NCBI RefSeq assembly: GCF_003602005.1
Contig: NZ_QZWD01000005.1
Location: 124,001-188,000, forward strand
Length of the DNA: 64,000 nucleotides
Origin: Salinisphaera sp. Q1T1-3
Lineage (GTDB): Bacteria; Pseudomonadota; Gammaproteobacteria; Nevskiales; Salinisphaeraceae
Direction: 5' to 3'
Of this stretch, positions 49,800 through 64,000 are shown piece by piece (the first letter of the stretch is position 1; each line of letters begins with the position of its first letter). The notes below the pieces were generated by a model that saw only the letters and a program-made list of their open reading frames with translations, was not told the origin of the DNA and did no database searches. Position numbers and translations under genes: made by a program.

Positions 49800-51194
49800 A
49801 TGACGACTGCACCGAACAAACGCGATATGAGCGAAAGCCAGACCCCTGACCGTGAACCGGCAATAGCCTCGACCCCACAGGATCCCGTGGCCCGTTACTT
49901 CGATTTCGCACGCGAGGGGACGACCTGGCAGCGCGAGATCGTCGGCGGGGTGACGACGTTCCTGGCCATGGCCTACATCATGTTCGTCAATCCGACCATC
50001 CTGTCGGCGGCCGGCATGGATCAGGGCGCGCTGTTCACGGCCACCGGCCTGTCGGCGATCGTCGGGACACTGCTCATGGCGCTGGTTGCGCGGTATCCCG
50101 TCGGCATCGCCCCCAGCATGGGGCTCAATGCCTTTTTCGCTTATTCGGTGGTGCTCGGCATGGGCGTGTCCTGGCAGACAGCGCTGGTCGGTGTGCTGTT
50201 TTCCGGGTTGATCTTCGTGGCCATCACAGCGCTGCGGATACGCGAGATGGTTCTCGATGCGATCCCGCTGGATCTCAAGCTCGCCTCGGCTTGTGGCATC
50301 GGGCTCTTCATTGCGCTCATCGGTTTCGAGGATGCCGGTATCGTTGTCGATAACCAGGCGACACTCGTCATGCTCGGCAATCTGACGGCGCCGGCGACGC
50401 TGCTCACCGTCGTCGGACTGATCGTCTCGGTCGGGCTCATGCTCCGACGCGTGCCCGGTGCCATTTTCTTCGGCATGGTGGTGACATCACTGCTGGGAAT
50501 CGCCATGGGGGTGATCGCGATGCCCGATGCCGTGGTGAGCCTCGCGCCGAGCGTCACCCCGGTGTTCGGGACCGCCATCAGCCAGCTTTTCGCGCACCCC
50601 GAATCGCTGTTCACGCTCAACTTCTTGGTCGTGGTGCTGACTTTTCTGTTCGTCGAATTCTTCGACACGGCCGGCACGCTCATGGCCGTGGCGAACAAGG
50701 CCGGACTGATGGCGGGGAATACGATGCGCCGTGCGCGGCCGGCCATGCTCGCCGATTCGTCTTCCGTGGTCGCGTCCGCGCTGATCGGCACCTCGCCGAC
50801 CACTTCCTATATCGAGTCCACGGCCGGAGTGGCCTCCGGCGCCCGCACCGGCATGGCCTCGATCGTCACGGCGCTGCTGTTCGCTGCCGCGTTGTTCTTC
50901 TCGCCACTGCTGGCGGTGGTGACAGCACACGTGACCGCGCCCGCGCTGATCATCGTCGGCGTGCTGATGGTCTCCTCGCTTGGAGAAATCGACTGGAAAC
51001 GGCTGGAGATCGCCGTGCCGGCATTTCTGACGCTGATCGCCATGCCGGCGACCTACAGCATCGCCAACGGCATCGCGCTGGGTCTGGTGATGTATCCGAT
51101 CACCATGGTGGTGGCCGGCCGCGGGCGGGAGTTGCATCCGGTCATGTATATCCTGTTCGCGATCTTCGTGGCGTATTTCGCCTTTCTGTCGTAG
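49800..51194 (+). CDS. Purine base permease, AzgA/PbuG type (NCS2)
   Basis: 464 residues with about 12-14 hydrophobic segments. FAREGTTWQREIVGGVTTFLAMAYIMFVNPTILSAAGMD is the AzgA-type N-terminus. IAPSMGLNAFFAYSVV, FVEFFDTAGTLMAVA (about 281-295, substrate Glu/Asp) and GTSPTTSYIESTAGVASGARTG (about 325-346) are the two NCS2/AzgA signatures. Family members import adenine, guanine and hypoxanthine with protons. Placement with guaD and xdh supports this. Second ATG at 49827 is an alternative start. Confidence 0.92.
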   Translation: MTTAPNKRDMSESQTPDREPAIASTPQDPVARYFDFAREGTTWQREIVGGVTTFLAMAYIMFVNPTILSAAGMDQGALFTATGLSAIVGTLLMALVARYPVGIAPSMGLNAFFAYSVVLGMGVSWQTALVGVLFSGLIFVAITALRIREMVLDAIPLDLKLASACGIGLFIALIGFEDAGIVVDNQATLVMLGNLTAPATLLTVVGLIVSVGLMLRRVPGAIFFGMVVTSLLGIAMGVIAMPDAVVSLAPSVTPVFGTAISQLFAHPESLFTLNFLVVVLTFLFVEFFDTAGTLMAVANKAGLMAGNTMRRARPAMLADSSSVVASALIGTSPTTSYIESTAGVASGARTGMASIVTALLFAAALFFSPLLAVVTAHVTAPALIIVGVLMVSSLGEIDWKRLEIAVPAFLTLIAMPATYSIANGIALGLVMYPITMVVAGRGRELHPVMYILFAIFVAYFAFLS

Positions 51195-51985: not shown

Positions 51986-52723
51986 TTATCCCGGGCTTGC
52001 CGGCTGCGTGTCAGTGGCCGCGCCGAAGATCGCGGCGAGATCGACCGTATTCTGCGCGCGGGCGTAATCGAGTCGCGCTTCGAGATGCGACAGATGGGCC
52101 GTCATGAGCGCGGCGGCCTGTTTGCTGTCGCCGGCATCGAGCGCTTCGATGATATGGCGATGGTCGTCTTCGCGATAGCAGGCTGCCATCCCCGGGACCT
52201 TATAAAGTGCGACCGCGATGGAGGTGCGCAGGATCAGTCCGTCCAGCATGCCGGCCAGAACGCGATTGGGACAGGCCGCGGCAAGCTGCTGGTGGAAGGC
52301 CAGCGAGTGATGAATACGCTGGTCGTGTGCGCCGGCTTCGTGCGCGCTGCGTTCGTCATCGAGCGTTTTTTCCAGCGCCTGGCGCTGGCCGGCGGATAGA
52401 GCGCCGGCCGTCAGGCGCACGACTTCACATTCCACGAGCCGGCGCGCAGCGAACAGTTCCGCGGTTTCTTCCCGGCTGGGCTCGGCCACCGTCGCGCTCT
52501 GATTGCGACGACTGGTGAGGATGCCGTCGGCGGTCAGCCGTACCAGCGCCTTGCGCACGATCGCCCGGTTGACCGCGAACACCTGCGCAAGCCGGGATTC
52601 CGGCAGCCGCGTCCCGGCCGGCAGCTGCTGATTGAGGATGGCGTGACGCACTGATCGGGCAATACGCCAGGCGGGATCGTCCGTGGCGGTCGGTGGCTCG
52701 GATTGCTGCAGAAATTCACTCAT
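51986..52723 (-). CDS. GntR-family regulator with FCD domain, probable purine regulator
   Basis: 245 residues. Winged helix at about 18-85 (ILNQQLPAGTRLPESRLAQVFAVNRAIVRKALVRLTADGIL, the GntR signature), then an all-helical FCD ligand domain about 92-235 with metal-binding His positions (H-H-S-LAFHQQL, HRHIIEAL, HLSHLE). FadR/FCD proteins bind TNGTNNNACNA-type dyads. It is divergent from xdhA, and palindromes of that kind occur before xdhA, guaD, the permease and the urate oxidase. Likely repressor relieved by a purine catabolite (inference). Confidence 0.92.
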   Translation of the reverse strand: MSEFLQQSEPPTATDDPAWRIARSVRHAILNQQLPAGTRLPESRLAQVFAVNRAIVRKALVRLTADGILTSRRNQSATVAEPSREETAELFAARRLVECEVVRLTAGALSAGQRQALEKTLDDERSAHEAGAHDQRIHHSLAFHQQLAAACPNRVLAGMLDGLILRTSIAVALYKVPGMAACYREDDHRHIIEALDAGDSKQAAALMTAHLSHLEARLDYARAQNTVDLAAIFGAATDTQPASPG

Positions 52724-52781: not shown

Positions 52782-52836
52782 GTATAGTCATATATTGCCG
52801 GTAATCGTTTCGCCGGCGTCTGTATGGGAGGTGACA

Positions 52837-54288
52837 GTGCGCCATACTCTACGCTTCCTCCTGGGCGATACGCTGCAGGAGCTGACCGGCGTCGATCCGA
52901 CTCAGACCGTACTCGCCTGGCTGCGTGCCAACGGACACACCGGAACCAAGGAAGGCTGTGCGGAAGGGGATTGCGGGGCCTGCACGGTCGTGATCGGTCG
53001 GGCGGATGCCGATGGGGCTATGGTCTATCGTGCGCTCAATGCCTGCATCATGTTTGTCGGCATGCTCGACGGCGCACAGTTGCTGACTGTCGCGCATCTG
53101 GCCGCCGCAGACGGCACCCTGCACCCGGTCCAGCAGGCGCTGGTCGATCACCACGGCTCGCAGTGCGGTTTCTGTACGCCGGGCTTCGTGATGTCGCTTT
53201 ACAGTTTCTATCGCAGTGGCCAGACGCCGACGCGAGCCGGTGTGTCGGACGCCATCGCGGGCAATCTGTGTCGCTGTACCGGCTATCGTCCGATCGTGGA
53301 TGCCGCCCTGTGCATGCACGACTATCCGGTCGTCGATGCGGGCGATACCGCGGCCATTGCCGCCCGTCTTCGCGCCCTGGACGACGGCGAGCCGATGGAT
53401 GTCGGCGACGGTGATCGCCGCTTCATCGCGCCGCGCGATCTGGCCGGGGTACAGCAGGCGCTGGCGCGTCATCCCACGGCGAGGCTGGTGGCCGGTGGCA
53501 CGGATGTCGGTCTGTGGGTGACCAAGCAACATCGTGACCTGGCGGTATTGATTCATCTGTCGCGGGTCAGCGAATTGCAGGGGATCGCGACATCGCCGAC
53601 GACGTTGATCATCGGCGGGGCGACCACACATGCAACCGCCCTGAGCGGGCTCGCCGCGCTGCATGCGGATATCGGCGAGCTGTTTCGTCGGTTTGGTTCC
53701 TGTCTGATCCGCAATGCCTCGACGGTGGGCGGCAACATCGCCAACGGTTCGCCGATCGGTGACTCGATGCCGGTGCTGATCGCACTCGGGGCCGAGGTGG
53801 AACTGGCGGGCCCGGTGGATCGGCGCCGGGTCGTGCTCGAGGCGCTGTACCGTGATTATCAGGAACAGGCCCGGGCATCAAACGAACTCGTCGCTCGCAT
53901 CGTGGTGCCGCGTCTGAGCGCGAATCAGCGATTCGGCTGCTACAAGCTCTCCAAGCGTTTCGACCAGGATATTTCGGCGGTCTGTGCTGCGTTTCGCATC
54001 ACGCTGGATGCAGGGCGCGTCATCGAAGCCCGGCTGGCTTTCGGTGGCATGGCCGCGATTCCGATTCGCGCCCGCCGGGCCGAAGCCGCGCTGGTGGGAC
54101 AGGCATGGAACGAGGCGAGTGTCGCGGCTGCCCGTGATGCGCTGGCCGAGGAGCTGTCGCCGATCAGTGACATGCGCGCCTCGGCGTCGTACCGACAGCG
54201 GGCGGCCGCGCAGCTTCTGCATCGTTTCTGGGTAGAAACCACCACGCCGGAGACATCGACACGCGTGTTGGCGGCGGAGCCGGTGTGA
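52837..54288 (+). CDS. xdhA: Xanthine dehydrogenase small subunit (2Fe-2S and FAD domains)
   Basis: 483 residues. 2Fe-2S ferredoxin domain with EGCAEGDCGACTV (about 41-53), second cluster CGFCTPGF and NLCRCTGYRPI (about 110-155), then FAD domain with ARLVAGGTDVGLW (about 217-229) and IRNASTVGGNIANGSPIGDS (about 291-310). Passes electrons from the Mo site to NAD+. GTG start chosen because GGGAGG lies 5 bases before it and the family N-terminus RHTLRFLLGD begins there. Overlaps xdhB by 4 bp. Confidence 0.95.
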   Translation: MRHTLRFLLGDTLQELTGVDPTQTVLAWLRANGHTGTKEGCAEGDCGACTVVIGRADADGAMVYRALNACIMFVGMLDGAQLLTVAHLAAADGTLHPVQQALVDHHGSQCGFCTPGFVMSLYSFYRSGQTPTRAGVSDAIAGNLCRCTGYRPIVDAALCMHDYPVVDAGDTAAIAARLRALDDGEPMDVGDGDRRFIAPRDLAGVQQALARHPTARLVAGGTDVGLWVTKQHRDLAVLIHLSRVSELQGIATSPTTLIIGGATTHATALSGLAALHADIGELFRRFGSCLIRNASTVGGNIANGSPIGDSMPVLIALGAEVELAGPVDRRRVVLEALYRDYQEQARASNELVARIVVPRLSANQRFGCYKLSKRFDQDISAVCAAFRITLDAGRVIEARLAFGGMAAIPIRARRAEAALVGQAWNEASVAAARDALAEELSPISDMRASASYRQRAAAQLLHRFWVETTTPETSTRVLAAEPV

Positions 54289-56648
54289 TGGATCAGCCCA
54301 CCCCGAAGCACAATCCCAGCGCCCGTCAGCCGATCGCGCACGACAGTGCGCATAAACACGTCACCGGTACGGCCCGTTACGGCGACGATATCCCGGAGCC
54401 GCGCGGTCTGTTGCATACCTATGCCTTTCCGGCCGAACGCACCCATGCTCGTGTGAGTCGACTGGATCTGTCGGCTGTCCGGGCGGCGCCGGGCGTGGCT
54501 GCGGTCGTCTCGGCGGCCGATCTGGCGGCTACGACCAACGATATCGGGCCGGTCTTTCCGGGCGACCAGGTGTTCGCCGATGGCGAGGTCCTGTTCTACG
54601 GCCAGCCGCTGTTCGCCGTGGCGGCCGAATCAATCGCCGCGGCGCGTCGAGCCGCGGGTCGGGCGATCGTCGAATATGTGGATCTGCCGGCGATTCTGAC
54701 CACCGACGCGGCGATCGACGCCGAGGCGTTCGTTGTGCCGTCCAAGACCTGGGGCCAGGGCGATCCGGACCGGGCTCTGGCAAGCGCGCCGCATCGGTTG
54801 AGCGGACGAACGACGGTCGGCGGCCAGGAGCATTTCTATCTCGAGGGCCAGGTTGCACTGGCCGTGCCCGGCGAGGATGGTGATCTGCTGGTCCACAGCT
54901 CGACGCAGCATCCGTCCGAAGTCCAGCGGGCGATCGCTCACGTGCTCGGCCGCGCCGATCATGCGGTGACGGTCGAGAACCGACGCATGGGCGGCGGTTT
55001 CGGGGGCAAGGAGACCCAGGGGGCCTGGTTCGCGGTGATCGCGGCCTGGCTGGCGGCGGCTACCGGGCGTCCAGTGAAGTATCGCCTGGATCGCGACGAT
55101 GACATGACGATGACCGGCAAGCGGCATCCGTTTGTCATCGATTACGACGTGGGCTTTGACGCCGACGGCCGGATCGTCGCACTCGACGTGATCCAGGCCG
55201 CCGACTGCGGCTATGCGCCGGATCTGTCGCATTCGATCGCGGATCGGGCGATGTATCACGCCGACAACGCCTATTATCTCGGCGATGTCCGGGTGACTTC
55301 GCATCGCTGTCGCACGCACAAGGTCTCGAACACTGCCTTCCGCGGTTTCGGCGGGCCGCAGGGCATGATCGGCATCGAGGAGATCATCGAGCAGATCGCC
55401 CGAGCGACTGGTCTGGACCCGCTCACCGTGCGTCGGCGCAACTACTACGGCACCGAGAATCGCAACCGCACGCCGTACGGCATGACGGTGGACGACAACA
55501 TCCTCGATCCGTTGACCGATGAACTGCTGGCCTCGGTCGATTATGCCCGCCGCCGGGCCGCGATCGCGGACGACAACGCCGCGAATGCCGTGCTCAAGAA
55601 AGGGTTGGCGTTCACCCCGGTGAAGTTCGGGATCTCCTTCACCAGCAAGTTTCTCAATCAGGCCGGCGCGCTGGTCCTGGTCTATCTCGATGGCAGTGTC
55701 CAGCTCAACCACGGCGGGACAGAGATGGGCCAGGGCCTGCACACCAAGGTTGCGCAGGTCGTCGCCGAGGTTTTCGGGCTGGACTTCGAGCGGGTGCGGA
55801 TCACCGCGACGAACACTGGCAAGGTGCCCAACACCTCGCCCACGGCCGCCTCGTCGGGCAGCGATCTGAACGGGGCTGCGGCCTACAACGCCGCCCGCAA
55901 GATCGTCGATCGGCTGCTGCCGGTCATTCGTGATCATTTCGATGTGCCCAGCGAAGATGCCATCCGTTTTGGCGAGAACGCGGTCCATGCCGGGCCGCGC
56001 CGTCTGGGCTCGTTCGCCGACATCGTGCAGATCGCGCACCGGGCCCGGGTCCAGCTATCGGCGGCCGGGTTCTATGCCACGCCCAAGATCGAAGTCGACG
56101 CGTTGGGCCGGGGGCGCCCGTTTTTCTACTTCGCCTACGGCGTGGCCTGCTCGGAAGTCGTGATCGACACGCTGACCGGGGAGCACCGGATGACCCGTGT
56201 CGATATTCTGCACGACGTCGGGAAATCGCTGAATCCGGCCATCGACATGGGCCAGATCGAAGGCGGCTTCATCCAGGGCGTGGGCTGGCTGACGACCGAG
56301 GAAAACGTCTGGGATGCATCCGGCAAGCTACTCACGCACGCCCCCTCGACCTACAAGATCCCGGTCGCCTCGGATGTCTGCGCGCGATTCACTGCCCGCA
56401 TCTATGAGCGCGGGGAGAACGTGGAGGACGCGGTCTATCGTTCCAAGGCTGTCGGCGAACCGCCGTTCATGCTGAGCCTGTCGGTTTTGCATGCCCTCAA
56501 GGACGCACTGGCCGCCATCGACGGGTATCGCAGCGCCGCGCCTCTGAACGCGCCCGCCACGCCAGAGGCAGTTCTGGCGGCGGCCGATGCCATGGCCGAG
56601 CGGGCCGCGCGACGAAGTATTTCCGCACTGCCGGAGCCGGCCGAGTGA
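54285..56648 (+). CDS. xdhB: Xanthine dehydrogenase molybdopterin-binding subunit
   Basis: 787 residues. N-terminal HDSAHKHVTGTARYGDDIPEPRGLLH, then molybdopterin-contact motifs GGGFGGKE (about 238-245), NTAFRGFGGPQGM (about 351-363), GGTEMGQGLHTKVAQV and the catalytic Glu in SKAVGEPPFMLSLSVLHAL (about 722-740). Oxidises hypoxanthine and xanthine to urate. Operon xdhAB; xdhC follows after a 206-bp gap holding an R2 element. Confidence 0.96.
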   Translation: MMDQPTPKHNPSARQPIAHDSAHKHVTGTARYGDDIPEPRGLLHTYAFPAERTHARVSRLDLSAVRAAPGVAAVVSAADLAATTNDIGPVFPGDQVFADGEVLFYGQPLFAVAAESIAAARRAAGRAIVEYVDLPAILTTDAAIDAEAFVVPSKTWGQGDPDRALASAPHRLSGRTTVGGQEHFYLEGQVALAVPGEDGDLLVHSSTQHPSEVQRAIAHVLGRADHAVTVENRRMGGGFGGKETQGAWFAVIAAWLAAATGRPVKYRLDRDDDMTMTGKRHPFVIDYDVGFDADGRIVALDVIQAADCGYAPDLSHSIADRAMYHADNAYYLGDVRVTSHRCRTHKVSNTAFRGFGGPQGMIGIEEIIEQIARATGLDPLTVRRRNYYGTENRNRTPYGMTVDDNILDPLTDELLASVDYARRRAAIADDNAANAVLKKGLAFTPVKFGISFTSKFLNQAGALVLVYLDGSVQLNHGGTEMGQGLHTKVAQVVAEVFGLDFERVRITATNTGKVPNTSPTAASSGSDLNGAAAYNAARKIVDRLLPVIRDHFDVPSEDAIRFGENAVHAGPRRLGSFADIVQIAHRARVQLSAAGFYATPKIEVDALGRGRPFFYFAYGVACSEVVIDTLTGEHRMTRVDILHDVGKSLNPAIDMGQIEGGFIQGVGWLTTEENVWDASGKLLTHAPSTYKIPVASDVCARFTARIYERGENVEDAVYRSKAVGEPPFMLSLSVLHALKDALAAIDGYRSAAPLNAPATPEAVLAAADAMAERAARRSISALPEPAE

Positions 56649-56854: not shown

Positions 56855-57826
56855 ATGACTGCGCAATCCATCTGGGCGGCGATTGATGAGCGTCTGGCCG
56901 CCGGCCAGCGGCTCTGGATCGTCGCCGTCGTGGCCCATACTCGCGGTTCGCCAGGTACCACCGGCGCGGTCCTCTACGTGGCCGACAACGGCGATGTCGG
57001 CGGCACGATCGGCGGCGGGGGCATGGAGAAACGTCTGATCGCCGATGGCCATGCCGCGCTGGGCGCCCCGGCCTATGGGCCGCGCTGGCGTCGCGAGGTT
57101 CACCGCGCGGACGCCGGGGAAGTAGCCTCCGGACTGATCTGTGCCGGTGAGCAGTGCAACGTGATGTTCGTTGTCGAACCCGAGCGCGACGGCGCCGCCA
57201 TCCGAGCCTTCGGCAGGGCGCTCGTGACCGGTGAAACCGGCGTGCTGACAATCACGACCGACGCGCCCGTCGTGTTCGTGGCCGGTGAGGCGACGCCGAC
57301 CGGTGTCTGGCCGGCCACCGACCGGGCTTGCGCGCGGGTAACGATCTCATCGAGACAGACGCGTCGGCTCGTCGTTTTCGGCGGCGGACACTGTGGGCGG
57401 CAATTGGCGAGTCTGGCAACCGATATCGGTTATCACGTGACCGTCCATGATCGGCGCGGCGAGGTGTTGTCCGATGCAGGGTGGCCGGCCGGTGTCGCAC
57501 GACGCCAGCTGCCGGAGACCGGTATCCCCGATATCGTCACACGGGATGCGACCGGGGCGTTCGCCGTGGTCATGAACGATAACGTGCTGGCGGATGTCGC
57601 GGTGCTGGCGGCCGTCGCGAATCTGCCGTGGCGCTGGCTCGGGGTGATGGGTAGCCGCCACAAGATCCATGTCATTCGCAGCAAACTCGGCGAGGCCAGC
57701 GTGGCCGACGAGACCATCGCCCGAATCGTCGGGCCGATCGGCCTGCCGATGAAAAGCGATACGCCGGCCGAAATCGCGGTCAGCGTGATGGGCCAGTTGC
57801 TCCAGATCGAAGGTCGGGCACGCTAG
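56855..57826 (+). CDS. xdhC: Xanthine dehydrogenase accessory protein XdhC
   Basis: 323 residues. N-terminal XdhC/CoxI domain (RLWIVAVVAHTRGSPGTTGAVLYV; GTIGGGGMEKRL; ICAGEQCNVMFV with the conserved CxGxxC-like pattern) and C-terminal Rossmann domain (RLVVFGGGHCGRQLASLA, about 170-187; WRWLGVMGSRHK). Chaperone that inserts sulfurated molybdenum cofactor into XdhB. Start has GGAGAG 6 bases upstream. The stop TAG is the TAG of the CTAG that flanks R1 copy D. Confidence 0.94.
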   Translation: MTAQSIWAAIDERLAAGQRLWIVAVVAHTRGSPGTTGAVLYVADNGDVGGTIGGGGMEKRLIADGHAALGAPAYGPRWRREVHRADAGEVASGLICAGEQCNVMFVVEPERDGAAIRAFGRALVTGETGVLTITTDAPVVFVAGEATPTGVWPATDRACARVTISSRQTRRLVVFGGGHCGRQLASLATDIGYHVTVHDRRGEVLSDAGWPAGVARRQLPETGIPDIVTRDATGAFAVVMNDNVLADVAVLAAVANLPWRWLGVMGSRHKIHVIRSKLGEASVADETIARIVGPIGLPMKSDTPAEIAVSVMGQLLQIEGRAR

Positions 57827-58132
57827 GGCCTGTTGATGTGTCGTGCGAGTCCGCGCCAAGCGCGCCCTGAAATTGACGATGGGCGGCAAGACGAGGCGCC
57901 GCAGGCATAGCGTGTCATTCTGCGCCAGCGGGCTACAATGCTGGATTGCCGTCGTGTTCTTGATTTTGGGGCGCTTGTCCCTTCGGGTTGGGCCGCCCAT
58001 GAAAAATCGACGATGGGCGCCCGGCGGCGTTTCGAGTCTGGATCGTGGCACCCCACGATCGGCGACTCGCGCCTTGCCGGACACACGGCGGTCTCTCGAT
58101 GAAAAGGCGCTCGAAAGAAACATCAACAGGCC
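57827..58132. mobile_element. R1 repeat (copy D) after xdhC
   Basis: 306 bp, opposite orientation to copy B and recognisably homologous along its length (shared ggcaagacgaggcg, gcatagcgtgtcat, ggatcgtggca, gcgccttgc segments). Left flank is CTAG (57823-57826); the right flank is CGGG, so one flank has mutated. Ends are 23-bp imperfect inverted repeats. Hairpin with 7-bp arms at 58042-58059. No protein of its own. Confidence 0.75.
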
Positions 58133-58382
58133 CGGGCGCGTCGTCACGAGATAGACCGTCGCGGCGCCTGCGGCCAGGCCGCGGGCGCGCCTTGCCTGGC
58201 AACGTCGGCGGGCCAATGCGGCTGCTGATCTCCCGACGATACAACTGGGGCATATCGACGCCGGCGCGTCGGGATCGGGAACGGTGCCGACACGATGACC
58301 GGCGGCCATCGCCCGGCTCCGCTCAGGCGCCAGCCGGATCATCGTCACCGAACCGGCCGCGTATCGATAGCGGGCGGATCGG

Positions 58383-59942
58383 TCATGAGCGGCCGGTTGT
58401 CACACGATGCTCGAAGCGGTGAAAGTCCTGCTCGAGCTGCCATTGACTTCGTGCCTTGTCGCTGGCCTTGATGAAACGTCGACAGCGCGCATCCATCCGC
58501 TGCGCCTCGAGTGCTTGTGCACAGGCCGGTACGGCGCGCCGGGGTGCCTTGGGCTGCCACAGACTCGGGCCGGGAAGAAACGCATAGATCAGGCTGTTCC
58601 GCGAGAGCTGCTTCAGAGCGCGATAATCGAGGCCCTGTTCACGAACGGCGCGTTCGTACTCATGGGTGAGATCGATGCGTGAGACGCCGGGATCGTCGGT
58701 CGATAACACGACGGGTACGCCGGCGCGTCGATAGAGGTTCAACGGGTGTTCGGCGCCGGCCACACCGAGGATGACGTCGTTACTGGTGAGATTGATCTCG
58801 ACCGCAACGGGCTGATTGCGCATACGGGCCAGCGTGGCCGCAGCGTCGTCTTCGCTGGCGATGTCCACGCCGTGGCCGATGCGATCGGCACCGGCGGCGA
58901 GAGCTGCGGCGATATGAAAGCGCAGGTCGGCCGGCGGCACGAGTCCCGGCGTCAGCTCGCCGGCATGCAGGCTCAGCGCGACGTCCGGATAGCGTCGATG
59001 GAAGAAGGCGAACATCGCCATGTGTTGACGATAATCGGCCCGGGCCGTCGGGTTGTCTTCGGGCGCGACGATGTTGACCGCCACCACGCGTGGATCGGCC
59101 GCAGCCAGAGCGAAGCCGAGTGCCATCTGCGCGAAGACCTTTTCGGGCGGTAACGTGCGCAACACATAGAACTGAAATCGATAGGCGACGTCGCAGGCCG
59201 GCTGTGCGTCGGGCGTGTCACAGCCGAGACGTTGATCGAGCCGGTCGATGTCGTCGTCGAACGCCTGTCGGGCCGCTGCCACGCGTTGCCCGATCCCGTC
59301 CTGGATATGGGCCAGGGCCTTGTCGTAGGCGCCCGTCTGCCAAGGCATATCGGTAACCAGCGGTGCCAGCGTGCCCAGCGCCGCCGGGTCCGTCATCGTT
59401 TCGATATAGCGCACGTGCTCGGCTGCAGCCTGCTGAAGCACCAGGGCGAGCATGTCGGTGCGATGGCGTGCGCTGATCGCAGCGAACCGGCCGAACGTGT
59501 CGAAGAACTGATCGTGGCCCGAATCGGCGCCGTCCCCGGGCACGAAATCGCGCATCGACATGGCATCGACGGTCTCGTTGTAGAAGGCCGGGGCACGCGA
59601 GGCCAGACCGCGCGCCGGTTCGTCCGTGTCGGCGTCGCAGGGCCCGGGATGCGCCCGGTGGTCGGCTTTGTCGATACAGGCCTGATCGGCATCCGCCCAG
59701 CGCAGCAGGTGCTCGGCATAGACAGCGCCATCGAGATGATGATGCAGATCCCCGCCCTTTGGCAGTGCGCGCAGAAATTGCCGCAGCTGCGGCGGCTGAT
59801 CCACGAGATCGGCCATGGTCGCTGCGGTCGCGGCCGTATCGTCGGTATCGCCCGGTGGGTCGTCGATCGCGGCCTGGGCGCTGAGCGAGACACCGAGCAA
59901 AAGCCCGGCGAGTGCGGCGCGGCCGGACGGCTTAATCGGCAT
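58383..59942 (-). CDS. Exported adenosine deaminase family protein
   Basis: 519 residues. Signal peptide GRAALAGLLLGVSLSAQA, predicted cleavage near residue 24. Deaminase core: GGDLHHHLDGAVYAEHLLRWA (HxH metal pair, about 63-83), LSLHAGELTPG (metal His and catalytic Glu, about 329-339), ADRIGHGVDIASEDD (catalytic His, about 352-366) and VVLSTDDPGVSR (metal Asp pair, about 404-415). Pattern fits adenosine deaminase-related growth factor-like proteins, longer than the cytosolic enzyme (about 340). Would turn adenosine into inosine in the periplasm. Start overlaps the upstream gene's stop by 11 bp. Confidence 0.9.
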   Translation of the reverse strand: MPIKPSGRAALAGLLLGVSLSAQAAIDDPPGDTDDTAATAATMADLVDQPPQLRQFLRALPKGGDLHHHLDGAVYAEHLLRWADADQACIDKADHRAHPGPCDADTDEPARGLASRAPAFYNETVDAMSMRDFVPGDGADSGHDQFFDTFGRFAAISARHRTDMLALVLQQAAAEHVRYIETMTDPAALGTLAPLVTDMPWQTGAYDKALAHIQDGIGQRVAAARQAFDDDIDRLDQRLGCDTPDAQPACDVAYRFQFYVLRTLPPEKVFAQMALGFALAAADPRVVAVNIVAPEDNPTARADYRQHMAMFAFFHRRYPDVALSLHAGELTPGLVPPADLRFHIAAALAAGADRIGHGVDIASEDDAAATLARMRNQPVAVEINLTSNDVILGVAGAEHPLNLYRRAGVPVVLSTDDPGVSRIDLTHEYERAVREQGLDYRALKQLSRNSLIYAFLPGPSLWQPKAPRRAVPACAQALEAQRMDARCRRFIKASDKARSQWQLEQDFHRFEHRVTTGRS

Positions 59943-61053
59943 GGTCGGGCCCGGTGCGCTCGCCAGTGCCGGGCATCTGGTCGCGATAGGTCGGCCAGCC
60001 GTCGACGATTGCCGAAACGACCGGCGAGGCGACCCGGTAGGCCGATTCCACCGACAATGCCAGTCCCGAATAGCCCGACTGTTCGCTGGCCAGGCTTTCA
60101 GCGGGCGTCTGGCCGGCGTGCGGCACGGTGAAATTGCTCACCGTGCGCAGCACGAGTACGCGGTCGGCATCGACACGCCCGGCGGTATCCAGACGATGGA
60201 GTTCCAGCAGCGTCCCGGTATCCTCCATTGCCGAGGTCACGAATTCACCCTGACCGTCGGTCCAGTACTTGACCCAGCGGTTGGCCCAGTCGTTGAGCCG
60301 GTCGCCGTGCCAGAACGTCATCGCAGCCAGATTGTCGCCTTTCTGGACTCGCGGCGGGCGTCGGGCCGCTTTCTGCTGGAACTGGTCGCGATAGGCCGCG
60401 ACATCGTCGGCATCCGGCAGTTTGACGTTTCGGGTCAGCGTATAGGCCCAGTCGGTCAGCCCGGCGTTCAGACGGAAACGCTGGACGGCGTTCAAGTCGC
60501 CCGGGATGGGCTTCTGGTATGGCTTGGTGCCCCACATCGGCAGGTAGCCGGTCGACCAGTTGTCGGGAATCTCTCGGGCATCGATTTCGTGGGCCAGATC
60601 GCCGTCGACGACGTAATCTGCCCAGACCGCCGACCCGAGCGACGTATCGGCGGGGTCGCCGCCGGAAATACCGGCCACCACCCAGTAGGCATGCGACAGA
60701 TCCAGCCGCGGGTCGTAGCCGACGGCGGCGATCGTGGAGACGGCGTTGGCCGTGCCCACGCCCGTGACCACGCCCAGCACGCCGGTCTTGGGGTTGAGCC
60801 AGGCATCGTGATAGGCGCCGGGCAGACTCAAACGCTGTGTCAAGCCGGCGCGTTTCTTCCAGAGTTGAAATTCGCCGGCCGTATCGCCTTCATCCTCGCC
60901 GATCTCGAACATGGTGACGACCACGGCCTTGATCGGAATCGGTGATGCATCGTCATGCGCCGGGGCGGGGGCCGCCCACGTCCGGGTCGCCAGGAGCAGC
61001 AGGAGGCTGGCGGCCGCGATCAGGGCCGGGTGTATGCGGATGAAACGGATCAA
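59932..61053 (-). CDS. Exported purine nucleoside permease/phosphorylase-like protein (NUP family)
   Basis: 373 residues from the preferred TTG start, which has AAAGGGG 6 bases before it and yields a compact signal peptide (ALIAAASLLLLLATRTWA, cleavage before APAPAHDD). An ATG 36 bases upstream lacks a ribosome site. Core blocks are IKAVVVTMFEIGEDEGDTAGEFQLW, GVVTGVGTANAVSTIAAVGYDPRLDLSHAYWVVAGISGGDP and VLRTVSNFTVPHAGQ. The bacterial family is named after fungal nucleoside permease NUP, but its fold is related to nucleoside phosphorylases and it has no multiple membrane helices. A periplasmic nucleoside-cleaving or binding role is more likely than a channel (inference). Confidence 0.85.
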   Translation of the reverse strand: MIRFIRIHPALIAAASLLLLLATRTWAAPAPAHDDASPIPIKAVVVTMFEIGEDEGDTAGEFQLWKKRAGLTQRLSLPGAYHDAWLNPKTGVLGVVTGVGTANAVSTIAAVGYDPRLDLSHAYWVVAGISGGDPADTSLGSAVWADYVVDGDLAHEIDAREIPDNWSTGYLPMWGTKPYQKPIPGDLNAVQRFRLNAGLTDWAYTLTRNVKLPDADDVAAYRDQFQQKAARRPPRVQKGDNLAAMTFWHGDRLNDWANRWVKYWTDGQGEFVTSAMEDTGTLLELHRLDTAGRVDADRVLVLRTVSNFTVPHAGQTPAESLASEQSGYSGLALSVESAYRVASPVVSAIVDGWPTYRDQMPGTGERTGPDHAD

Positions 61054-61201
61054 TGATTTCCCCTTTTGTTTTGATGAGCCGGCCGACATCGGTGCGTGTC
61101 GGCCGGTGGGTGTGGCAGCCGGCCGGCGCAGGCGACGTTGTCAGTAAATCCCGGCCCGCCGCGGGTGCGTCCGGCCGGTCAGGCTCGAAAGAGCCGTGGT
61201 C

Positions 61202-61232
61202 CGGCGGCGACAATTCAGTATTGTCGCCGCCG
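61202..61232 (-). terminator. Strong 13-bp stem-loop downstream of the TonB receptor gene
   Basis: Perfect inverted repeat with 13-bp arms (cggcggcgacaat / attgtcgccgccg) and a 5-base loop, 25 bp after the receptor stop codon. A smaller stem with a 4-base loop (ggctc / gagcc) lies just beyond at about 61182-61195. There is no T-run, so this may be a processing or stability hairpin rather than a classical terminator; it separates the outer-membrane receptor from the enzyme genes. Confidence 0.5.
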
Positions 61233-61256
61233 AGACAACGCCCGGGCGACGGACGT

Positions 61257-63596
61257 CTAGAAACGCATCTTGAACTGGGCCCCCCAGATCCGCGGGTCGT
61301 TCACGAAAGCGGTCAGATTGTTGAAGTCGATTGCCCCATTGGAACGAATCTCGTTGGTGCAGTTGCGACAAAAGGCAGCGACTTCGTATTTCTCGTTATC
61401 CCAGGTGTAGCCGAGGCGCACGCCCCCCTGAACGAGCGATTTCGCACGAAACTCCTTGGCTTCGTAGAGGAAGATGTTGAAATCGTCGCGGTAGGACCAG
61501 TCCGTGTACAGATAAATACCGCGCCCGTCGGACAGCGGCCAGTCGTAGCGCGCGCTGATGGTGCCGATGAACTTCGGGGCCCGCGGCAGCGGGTTGCCGT
61601 CCAGGGCGTACAGCCCGCTTCCGACGGACGGGTCGGTGACGGTGCAGGCGGCACCGCAACCGCTCGAGAACAGGTTGTTATCGTCGAGCTCGGTGTGGTT
61701 GTAGCTGCCGTTGAGCGTGATCATCAGACGCGATGTGAGAAAGGCGTCGACATCCAGCTCCGCGCCGTAGCCTTGCGTGGAATCGGCATTGAGCAGCCGC
61801 GTGATGTTGCGTTGCCCGCCGGTGGCGGTGAGCTGCTGGCCGTCGACATCGTAGTAATAGATATCGAAGTTGGTGCGAATGCGACGATCCCAGTATTCGG
61901 TCTTGGCACCCAGCTCGTAGGAAATGACGTCTTCGCTGCCGGCCTGGGTGATCGGCAGGTTGCTGTCCGGTCGGGCGAAGCTGCCGGCTCGAAAACCGGT
62001 CGCCACACGGGCATAGGTCATGACGTCGTCGGTCCAGTCGTAGGACAGGGTGGCATCCCAGCTGACCTTGCCCTCGCTGGTGTCGTCCTGCCGCGGTCCA
62101 ATGATCGACAGATTGTCGATGCGCTTCACGGCGAACTTCTTGTCATTGTAGGTGTAGCGCACGCCTGCCTTGAACTGCAACCGGTCCGTGAAGTCGTAGG
62201 TCAGAGCACCGAACACCGCCCCGGACTGGGTCGTCTGCTCGTCGGTGATGCTGCTGACCTCGTCGCCGCCGGCCAGCGTGTCGTAGGTGAGGTTCGAGCC
62301 ATCGACGTCTTCATAGAAGTAATAGAGTCCGCCCTGCCAGTTGAGAGGGCCGTCGTAGTCTGATTGCGCCCGGAATTCCTGTGTGATCTGGGCGAGATCG
62401 TTGATCCGCGAAGCGGTTTCCACCGAGAAAGGTGTATTGGTCGGATTGCCGCCGTCGATATCCCCGCGGCTGTAGTAGTTCAGCACCGACTCGTAGCCGG
62501 TGATGGAATACAGCGTGATGTCATGCCCGGTGTCGTAGCTGAGATGCAGATTGGTGCCGAAGGTCGACAGATCCTGGTCGTTACGCCCGTCGGTATCGGT
62601 TTTGTCGACATCGAAGCCGGGCCGCAGCGAATTGCTACCGGTGTTCAAGGCGTTGGCGTGGAAGACTCGGGCCGTGCCGTCCAGAATCCGGCCGTGGACG
62701 TTGGCCAGCGCACGGAAAGCACTGTTGGGTTTGTAGAGCAGTTGCACCCGGTAGGCACGGTCGTCGTAGCTGCCGAGCTGATCATCCTGGTCGGTATAGG
62801 TGTTGTCGATGAAGTCGTCCCGATGCTCCTCGAGTAGAGAGACCCGTAGCGCGAGGCTATCGCTGAGCACGGTGTTATGTGCCATCTCCACGTTGATGGT
62901 GTTGTAGCGTCCCCAGGAGGTCTTTAAATAGCCACTGCCGTCGTCGGTCAGGGACGGGGCCGCCGATTCGAGCTTGACGACGCCGGCCGGCGTGTTTCGG
63001 CCGTAAAGCGCGCCCTGTGGGCCGCGTAGCACTTCCACATTCGCCAGATCGTAGAGCGGGAAACTCTTCAGGACCGCGTTGTTGAGCTGGATATCGTCGT
63101 AGACCAGCCCGACGGGCTGCGAGGCGAAGATCGAGAAATCCGTATTGCCATAGCCGCGGATATAGAAACGCGGCAGCGTCCGTCCGTTCGAGGACTCCAC
63201 GTAAAGGCTCGGCGTGTTGCCGGACAGCACGCGGATGTCCTGACCGCTCGTGTTGAGCGCTTCCATCTTTTCCCGCGGTATCACCGTGGCCGACGAGGCC
63301 ACGTCCTGAACGTTGGCCGGTGCCCGGTCGGAAGTCACGGTGATCGCCGAGAGCGTCTGCGCCGGCGATGTGCTGCTCGCGGCTGTGCTCGCGGTGGCCG
63401 GCACCGCAGCGGCAGGCGCGGCGGCGGTCGGTGCAGACTCGGATGTGGCCGGCTCGGCCGGTGCGGCAGCGACAGGGGGCCTGTCGGTCTCTCGGTCTTC
63501 GTCGGCCCAGCTCGGTGGGCAGACCATCGTGGCCAGCAGACTCCCCGGAAAAACCCCCCAACGCCACAGTGGCTGGCGTGCCATTACTGTCTTCAT
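61257..63596 (-). CDS. TonB-dependent outer membrane receptor, probably for purines or nucleosides
   Basis: 779 residues. Signal peptide to about residue 33 (PPSWADED), an unusual Ala/Pro/Ser/Thr-rich linker of about 40 residues, TonB box-like SAITVTSDRAP, plug domain (VIPREKMEALNTSGQDIRVLSGN, FYIRGYGNTDFSIF, VEVLRGPQGALYGRNTPAGVV) and a 22-strand barrel ending in Phe (GAQFKMRF). Start at MKTVMARQ has GGGGGAA upstream. Position beside exported nucleoside enzymes and divergent from urate oxidase suggests a nucleoside or purine ligand rather than a siderophore; this is context only. Confidence 0.9.
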   Translation of the reverse strand: MKTVMARQPLWRWGVFPGSLLATMVCPPSWADEDRETDRPPVAAAPAEPATSESAPTAAAPAAAVPATASTAASSTSPAQTLSAITVTSDRAPANVQDVASSATVIPREKMEALNTSGQDIRVLSGNTPSLYVESSNGRTLPRFYIRGYGNTDFSIFASQPVGLVYDDIQLNNAVLKSFPLYDLANVEVLRGPQGALYGRNTPAGVVKLESAAPSLTDDGSGYLKTSWGRYNTINVEMAHNTVLSDSLALRVSLLEEHRDDFIDNTYTDQDDQLGSYDDRAYRVQLLYKPNSAFRALANVHGRILDGTARVFHANALNTGSNSLRPGFDVDKTDTDGRNDQDLSTFGTNLHLSYDTGHDITLYSITGYESVLNYYSRGDIDGGNPTNTPFSVETASRINDLAQITQEFRAQSDYDGPLNWQGGLYYFYEDVDGSNLTYDTLAGGDEVSSITDEQTTQSGAVFGALTYDFTDRLQFKAGVRYTYNDKKFAVKRIDNLSIIGPRQDDTSEGKVSWDATLSYDWTDDVMTYARVATGFRAGSFARPDSNLPITQAGSEDVISYELGAKTEYWDRRIRTNFDIYYYDVDGQQLTATGGQRNITRLLNADSTQGYGAELDVDAFLTSRLMITLNGSYNHTELDDNNLFSSGCGAACTVTDPSVGSGLYALDGNPLPRAPKFIGTISARYDWPLSDGRGIYLYTDWSYRDDFNIFLYEAKEFRAKSLVQGGVRLGYTWDNEKYEVAAFCRNCTNEIRSNGAIDFNNLTAFVNDPRIWGAQFKMRF

Positions 63597-63820: not shown

Positions 63821-64000
63821 ATGAAAATCGAACACGTCGAATACGGTAAATGCGAGGTGAGCCTTTATCGCAGCTATGCCACGCCACTGCACGGTCTGCG
63901 CCCAATCCCGGAATCCGCGTTTACAGGGCGCGAGAATCGACTGTTCGCCGTGAATATTGCGGTGCATGTGCTGGGCCATCACGTCGAGGCGGCCTACACA
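63821..64000 (+). CDS. Factor-independent urate oxidase (uricase), N-terminal part
   Basis: First 60 codons of a gene that runs off the window. EHVEYGKCEVSLYRSYATPLHGLRPIPESAFTGRENRLFAVN matches the uricase start (YGKGDV..YRTYxxPLxGVRxIPESPFSGRDHxLFGxN in Bacillus PucL, from memory), including the Tyr/Lys of the catalytic region. Oxidises urate to 5-hydroxyisourate with O2, the step after xanthine dehydrogenase. ATG at 63821 follows GGGAG by 5 bases. Divergent from the TonB receptor gene. Confidence 0.88.
   Translation, partial: MKIEHVEYGKCEVSLYRSYATPLHGLRPIPESAFTGRENRLFAVNIAVHVLGHHVEAAYT

Follow-up and report, generated by a model that had tools for sequence, protein, structure and literature searches.

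What might a member of a family named "purine nucleoside permease" be doing between an exported adenosine deaminase and a TonB-dependent receptor? This question is raised by three genes in a 64,000-nucleotide stretch of the Salinisphaera sp. Q1T1-3 genome (contig NZ_QZWD01000005.1, positions 124,001 to 188,000 of the forward strand), hereafter the window. A sequence-only reading had placed a module at 58383-63596 and proposed that nucleosides cross the outer membrane by the receptor and are deaminated and cleaved in the periplasm, the free bases then entering by a permease. The limits of this module proved exact, all three genes being present on the minus strand, and the deaminase and NUP (PF06516) genes overlap as an operon as had been noted, the deaminase ATG and the NUP stop sharing 11 bp (Table 1). 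The firmest new point of the present analysis is that the "permease" folds, as modelled, like a nucleosidase, is predicted to be exported and has an active site that is both altered and invariant.

NUP and its partner deaminase

The NUP protein matched PF06516 over model positions 2-312 of 313 (365.8 bits, cut-off 27). From its best start, TTG 61053, which has the favourable ribosome-binding sequence AAGGGG just upstream (read by eye), its N-terminus is signal-peptide-like by a home-made rule (h-region IAAASLLLLL, end TWA), in agreement with the sequence-only reading, and the alternative start ATG 61089 also yields a signal peptide by this rule. Past residue 30, no 19-residue window reached a Kyte-Doolittle hydropathy of 1.6, compared with 109 such windows in the PF00860 permease. 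The AlphaFold model (pLDDT 89.2, pTM 0.89, 41-row alignment) is a soluble alpha/beta structure, and the structure prediction that had been suggested earlier thus returned a nucleosidase-like and not a transporter-like fold. Its top Foldseek matches were methylthioadenosine/S-adenosylhomocysteine nucleosidases (MTAN; E 7.3e-11), with the uridine phosphorylase 4txj among the matches. The best VIA match was 5b7q, a periplasmic Aeromonas MTAN (Z 24.2, 239 residues, 3.1 Å), which puts NUP in the purine/uridine phosphorylase (PUP) superfamily; within the best 50 VIA rows the first 49 were MTAN or futalosine hydrolases (the latter at Z 23.1) and row 50 was the uridine phosphorylase 3kvr (Z 20.5). The placement of the NUP profile in the PUP superfamily is already in print, in the portion of PMC9815663 that bears on this family. 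On its model, NUP most resembles the hydrolytic nucleosidases of this fold, and by every indirect test made it looks like a soluble exported enzyme; its reading as a permease was rejected because of its fold and hydropathy.

What is new here is the active-site reading, for which residues were numbered from mature fragments starting at base 60975 for NUP and at base 59870 for the deaminase. A broad MTAN set (E. coli Mtn, 17 phmmer hits from the loci described below and 10 exported MTAN-like proteins) was colinear with NUP in hhalign over 230 columns, with a local E of 2.6e-4 (probability 42) and a global E of 1.3e-7 (probability 91), and this alignment paired E35 with E12, E251 with E174 and S280-N281 with S196-D197. 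In 103 related NUPs, E35, E251 and N281 were each conserved in 102, and every miss was due to a gap or to the end of a contig. NUP therefore appears to match the first two members of the MTAN catalytic set E12, E174 and D197 and not the third, the position of the catalytic Asp197 being held by an invariant Asn. The Asp at position 197 is the general acid of MTAN, and D197 and E12 are named as mutated MTAN residues in PDB titles among the Foldseek matches. In trimeric purine nucleoside phosphorylases (PNPs) an Asn serves for 6-oxopurines. The invariant Asn thus suggests a preference for 6-oxopurines such as inosine and guanosine, which would explain the linked deaminase. Compared with MTAN, including the periplasmic Aeromonas enzyme (5b7q, 5b7p), NUP has in common the fold, the predicted location (periplasmic in the PDB title) and the E12 and E174 equivalents, and differs by 14% identity, the invariant Asn, about 100 additional residues and its absence from the results of PDB sequence searches. 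On these grounds NUP is nucleosidase-like by sequence and is not classed as an MTAN. A protein of one related NUP locus (L115) matched both PNP_UDP_1 (132.3 bits) and, below the cut-off of 27, NUP (23.3 bits) over overlapping stretches.

Other nucleosidase-fold proteins were observed beside NUP. In ten loci of order-level relatives (L033:5903-6751, L035:13328-14170 and eight more), NUP and the exported deaminase flank exported MTAN-like proteins that have the same Asn at the Asp197 position, and five loci of order-level relatives (L044:12450-13565 and four more) hold PNP/MTAP-like PF01048 proteins with SISN and, by eye, a signal peptide, a further exported nucleosidase-fold family. The NUP loci of Henriciella and Ponticaulis encode lipoprotein-like proteins of about 630 residues (L075:5783-7762, L115:5856-7763) whose PNP-superfamily domain keeps the Asp (SLSD) and whose C-terminal half is without a Pfam match, as searched with the L115 protein.

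The partner deaminase scored 88.1 bits against Pfam A_deaminase (cut-off 27) and, as the sequence-only reading had also stated, begins with a signal-peptide-like segment by the home-made rule (AALAGLLLGV, end AQA). Rows within one Z being counted as tied, its model (pLDDT 92.6, pTM 0.92) matched human ADAL (Z 34.5, 335 residues), ADA2 (3lgd, Z 33.5, 409) and the AMP deaminase of Helix pomatia from the secreted ADGF group (9ntg, Z 32.7, 413 aligned). Among the rows listed, the ADA2/ADGF and snail enzymes align most residues, and these together with CRISPR deaminases extend to the N-terminus of the model. The extended ADA2 fold was therefore found over 409 residues in alignment with 3lgd, and secretion by the home-made rule only. 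Seven residues presumed to have the PF00962 zinc-binding and catalytic roles (H43, H45, H302, E305, H333, D392 and D393) are invariant in 30 homologues. All 12 sequences of the window deaminase clade have six Cys arranged as three close pairs, NUPs average 0.66 Cys (n=112) and the window NUP has none, a pattern to be expected of proteins located outside the cytosol. The window enzyme shares with the secreted ADA2/ADGF deaminases a fold near full length, the zinc site and export, and differs in its 18% identity, its score against the ADGF model TIGR01431 (50.3 bits versus 315) and its operon partner NUP; because it lies below that cut-off, it is called ADGF-like here. Its sequence indicates export and a complete catalytic site.

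Recurrence of the gene set and the receptor

The search for the same trio in other genomes, also proposed earlier, was positive. Six peptide patterns of the window NUP were scanned against 84,980 species genomes and gave 70 named loci of close relatives (44-61% identity as listed), with NUP called by the gene finder in 69/70. These loci are not independent, since 14 are from Gluconobacter and many from Alteromonas and the proteins of L067 (Solimonas marina) equal those of G025 (L036), and 21/70 are shorter than 20 kb. By clustering of the proteins, a receptor was found in the fetched stretch of 49/70 loci and an exported deaminase in 47/70; they adjoin NUP in the gene list in 40/70 and 28/70 respectively. 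A PF00860 permease was present in 40 of the 70, a cytosolic deaminase in 23 and xanthine dehydrogenase in 14. When the Gluconobacter loci are set aside, the receptor is present in 49/56, the exported deaminase in 33/56 and both in 30/56. The 14/14 Gluconobacter loci have the deaminase-NUP pair and no receptor in the fetched flanks; therefore the receptor is not obligatory. A single BLAST set-up, with ten receptor references and E values up to 1e-8, detected receptors in 48/70 and exported deaminases in 47/70 NUP loci, versus 0/20 and 0/20 random 20-kb stretches from two related genomes. The gene set recurs more than by chance.

The home-made export rule, which tries ATG starts only, was positive for 54/67 linked deaminases and 77/103 NUPs (41 as lipoproteins), compared with 0/46 cytosolic deaminases, 0/15 XdhA, 1/36 AzgA-type permeases and 3/31 NCS2 permeases. 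Further components of related loci are MTAN-, PNP- and IUNH-like proteins that are exported, together with base permeases and xanthine dehydrogenase. Bmp-type ABC substrate-binding proteins were also observed in 11/89 NUP loci, all from order-level relatives (L032:5179-6291 and ten more, one member confirmed by Pfam), and members of a protein cluster named ATPase-like by eye in 7/89.

Trees were made from 95 NUP, 57 deaminase and 65 receptor rows, the last by a quick method, after removal of L115, L116, short rows, duplicates and most Gluconobacter. The window NUP pairs with that of G044, an order-level relative (support 100/98), and the window receptor pairs with the same genome (SH-aLRT 100). 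The window deaminase pairs with Solimonas-type deaminases (98/88), whose adjacent NUPs lie in another NUP clade, and NUP loci hold deaminases from two deep clades and receptors likewise from two. The window trio thus looks mosaic, the exact placements being tentative, and the repeated assembly of such a gene set would be hard to explain without a shared function. NUP was found in 17/146 genomes searched, that of Q1T1-3 included, and in 0/13 congeners. G004, the only congener whose uricase is close (70%), encodes uricase, HIU hydrolase and OHCU decarboxylase beside xdh-like and guanine-deaminase-like genes, and its stretch of about 40 kb contained no NUP, exported deaminase or receptor.

The gene adjoining the pair encodes a TonB-dependent receptor, as had been claimed, with both the plug (60.7 bits) and the barrel (107 bits) found by Pfam. 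Its N-terminus, MKTVMARQPLWRWGVFPGSLLATMVCPPSWA, is a signal peptide by eye and was not flagged by the home-made rule. Its best NCBIfam match was the siderophore subfamily TIGR01783 at 104.3 bits, below the cut-off of 223.5, and three relatives also scored far below it, so that by sequence it is not a confident siderophore receptor. A separate scan for a Fur box at this gene gave a best match of 12/19, equalled by 59/300 shuffles, and regulation by iron was set aside as a candidate for want of a Fur box beyond chance.

A proposed extracytoplasmic route and its rivals

We consider it somewhat probable that the locus is a purine-nucleoside utilisation module working outside the inner membrane, its activities and locations being predicted from the genes, their order and recurrence, the predicted folds and the residue conservation described above. 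Nucleosides or related purine compounds would enter the periplasm, probably with the help of the TonB receptor, and there the ADGF-like deaminase would convert adenosine to inosine and NUP, judging by its fold and active-site mapping, would split the purine nucleoside into base and sugar; the bases would then enter via PF00860 permeases and be oxidised by xanthine dehydrogenase and uricase. The compartment layout of the sequence-only reading is largely supported as far as predicted export, a nucleosidase-like NUP, the recurring receptor link and nearby base permeases and xanthine dehydrogenase are concerned, and may not be the sole route in a genome that also encodes a NupG-type symporter, a uridine phosphorylase and a deaminase lacking a signal peptide. 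The presence of an exported IUNH-type hydrolase elsewhere in this genome makes the layout broader than the trio.

Several points weigh against the proposed route. With a 6-row MTAN alignment, hhalign was not significant (probability 1.7), its 19 aligned columns still pairing S280-N281 with S196-D197, and PDB sequence searches with one NUP and with a profile found no relative (two chance-like hits, E 0.032 and 0.51, for the single sequence and none for the profile). According to a PDB title, an E. coli MTAN Asp197Asn mutant was crystallised with substrate, and thus the Asn of NUP could mean weak activity or another role. The NUP of Candida albicans presumably belongs to PF06516 too. This protein, compared here by description only, bears the same family name and is described as a transporter in the sections of PMC9431476 that concern it, and it lets adenine-auxotrophic yeast use adenosine, which argues against strict 6-oxopurine specificity family-wide. 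Moreover, 23/56 non-Gluconobacter loci are without an exported deaminase and 7/56 without a receptor in the fetched stretch, the export rule missed 13/67 deaminases and 26/103 NUPs, and the tree tool warned that the NUP pair of the window and G044 joins two long branches. Small nucleosides pass porins, so that a TonB receptor for them is unexpected. Finally, the own genome encodes a NupG-type nucleoside symporter (397.4 bits) and related loci hold the Bmp-type genes; intact nucleosides may therefore be imported too, and the extracytoplasmic route would be additional and need not be exclusive.

The receptor substrate is the weakest link of the compartment model. It is possible, though on the whole unlikely, that the exported enzymes act as proposed and nucleosides come in by porins, the receptor standing beside these genes for some other reason and carrying an oligonucleotide-like compound, a siderophore, haem or cobalamin. 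The siderophore subfamily as best match, the receptor-free Gluconobacter pairs and the receptor-free loci elsewhere all fit such a division, against which stand the low siderophore scores of the receptor and its three relatives, a Fur-box match within the range of shuffles, the adjacency to NUP in 40/70 loci, the accompaniment of NUP by two distantly related receptor clades and the same sister genome for window receptor and NUP. An action of the ADGF-like enzyme on AMP or some other adenyl compound instead of adenosine is rather unlikely. In its favour, the Helix pomatia AMP deaminase is as good a structural match as ADA2; against it, Skaldin 2018, as quoted in the relevant part of PMC10358891, is credited with showing that a secreted ADGF homologue from bacteria deaminates adenosine.

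With regard to NUP itself, a phosphorylase releasing ribose-1-phosphate is an improbable alternative to a hydrolase. The superfamily mixes both activities and uridine phosphorylases (3kvr, 4txj) occur among the fold matches, whereas MTAN and futalosine hydrolases precede 3kvr throughout the best 50 VIA rows and periplasmic ribose-1-phosphate would, on established physiology, need an importer of its own. A role in transport after all, for example by binding nucleosides in the periplasm with a nucleosidase fold that is no longer active, is very improbable. The family name and the C. albicans complementation (PMC9431476), the Asn in place of the catalytic Asp and the ABC-type genes in a minority of NUP loci speak for it; the invariant equivalents of E12 and E174 would be unexpected in a mere binder, and NUP has no membrane segment. 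In addition, the same passages of PMC9431476 report that CaNUP conferred no toyocamycin sensitivity and that CNT did, which its authors read as narrower transport specificity and which, reinterpreted, would fit extracellular cleavage better than import.

Marine bacteria feed on dissolved nucleosides. Polysaccharide utilisation loci bring together an outer-membrane receptor, exported enzymes and inner-membrane uptake in one locus. The present loci are like them in these three parts, here with a small nucleoside as predicted substrate. A wider proposal, whose chances we judge evenly balanced, is that the whole PF06516/COG5042 family consists of misnamed exported purine nucleosidases with Asn for the catalytic Asp, around which bacteria have repeatedly assembled loci for nucleoside use, comprising a TonB receptor, an exported deaminase, exported nucleosidases and base permeases, as a purine counterpart of the polysaccharide loci. 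If so, the fungal "permease" results would reflect extracellular cleavage followed by base uptake. A nucleosidase activity of NUP would change metabolic models, guesses of TonB-receptor substrates and the reading of fungal nucleoside uptake, and would give a concrete substrate guess for two TonB receptor clades.

We take the plant extracellular nucleoside hydrolase to belong to the IUNH family. That plant system, as presented in the pertinent part of PMC4688390, also handles nucleosides outside the membrane. In current annotation NUP is treated as a transporter; a coastal bacterioplankton study, for instance, lists COG5042, purine nucleoside permease, among transporters (PMC2847192, in the portion naming it), and the portions of PMC8027193 and PMC8289736 that were matched have no bearing on NUP. 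Among the matches listed from open-licence PubMed Central, neither NUP as a tested nucleosidase nor receptor-deaminase-NUP loci were recognised, which is weak evidence of absence.

Neighbouring genes and other elements

Table 1. Features of the window around the nucleoside module.
Feature	Coordinates	Strand	Basis or remark
TonB-dependent receptor (plug and barrel)	61257..63596	-	Pfam; groups in the tree with receptors from NUP loci of Microbulbifer, Haliea and G044
NUP (PF06516), exported MTAN/PNP-fold protein, predicted purine nucleosidase	59932..61053	-	TTG start preferred
ADA2/ADGF-like adenosine deaminase, predicted exported	58383..59942	-	overlaps NUP by 11 bp
Perfect 13-bp stem hairpin, receptor-NUP gap	61202..61232	.	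folding z for enclosing stretch
PF00860 purine-base permease	49800..51194	+	Pfam; homologues recur in NUP loci
GntR/FCD regulator	51986..52723	-	Pfam/NCBIfam; divergent from xdhA, xdhB, xdhC
Xanthine dehydrogenase small subunit xdhA	52795..54288	+	TIGR02963 above cut-off; start codon not settled
Xanthine dehydrogenase molybdopterin subunit xdhB	54285..56648	+	TIGR02965 above cut-off
XdhC-like maturation factor	56855..57826	+	Pfam cut-offs reached, NCBIfam cut-offs not
Perfect palindrome TTAGTCAC-N9-GTGACTAA	63778..63802	+	18 bp before uricase ATG; possible operator
Uricase gene start (PF01014), divergent from receptor	63821..64000	+	continues in L002:822-1757

The module ends coincide with the end of the deaminase open reading frame (58383) and with the in-frame ATG of the receptor (63596), which has GGGGGAACC directly before it; the program-made list of open reading frames starts the receptor at TTG 63635. 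The purine oxidation genes which the sequence-only reading saw nearby are well supported, as xdhA (611.6 bits, NCBIfam cut-off 467) and xdhB (1160.7, cut-off 849.5) pass and the adjoining sequence just past the window (L002) holds uricase, OHCU decarboxylase, a second PF00860 permease, HIU hydrolase (named by reading its sequence) and a deaminase without signal peptide. The PF00860 permease inside the window is presumably of the type labelled AzgA. The GC content of the module (61.5-66.7% in 1500-base windows, 57-63.5 kb) is like that of its surroundings; therefore a recent foreign origin is not shown, despite the absence of NUP from all 13 congeners.

The own genome has one NUP and, for PF00962, two deaminases only, the exported one and the one without signal peptide, which passes two NCBIfam adenosine-deaminase cut-offs (448 versus 419 and 332.2 versus 216.55). 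Proteins matching such models can be adenine deaminases. Four PNP_UDP_1 members were found (methylthioinosine phosphorylase, uridine phosphorylase, AMP nucleosidase and, below the cut-off, a hopanoid-type phosphorylase), with no CNT or Bmp family match in this genome. Its single IUNH, which has a signal peptide and lies outside the window (L130:7040-8434, contig C43), has an altered first Asp motif, IDQDGSGPGGSNERA, relative to what we take to be the reference, DTDPG.DDA; a linked homologue (L042:4141-5253) also departs from it (LDDDFTGFSNV), and the two proteins possibly have a divergent metal site.

Between the receptor and NUP lies a gap of 203 bp with a hairpin without U-run (stretch 61195-61262, z -5.43), a possible protector of an mRNA 3' end that perhaps sets different receptor and enzyme levels. 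Promoter and terminator scans gave no excess over shuffles. With up to 3 mismatches allowed, the palindrome before uricase matched once in the window, where 0.03 matches would be expected. Neither the window nor L002 contained another copy at this tolerance, so an operator common to the uricase and xdh genes was dropped. At 57821-58138 lies an interspersed repeat of about 312 bp with 29-nt imperfect terminal inverted repeats, which appears to be like a miniature inverted-repeat transposable element. At least 40 near-full-length copies, this one included, occur in the own genome (40 of 280 first-look candidates were scored), the others being 88-95% identical. CTAG stands at both ends in 2/4 distinct listed copies, and another copy (L130:8489-8801) adjoins the exported IUNH gene.

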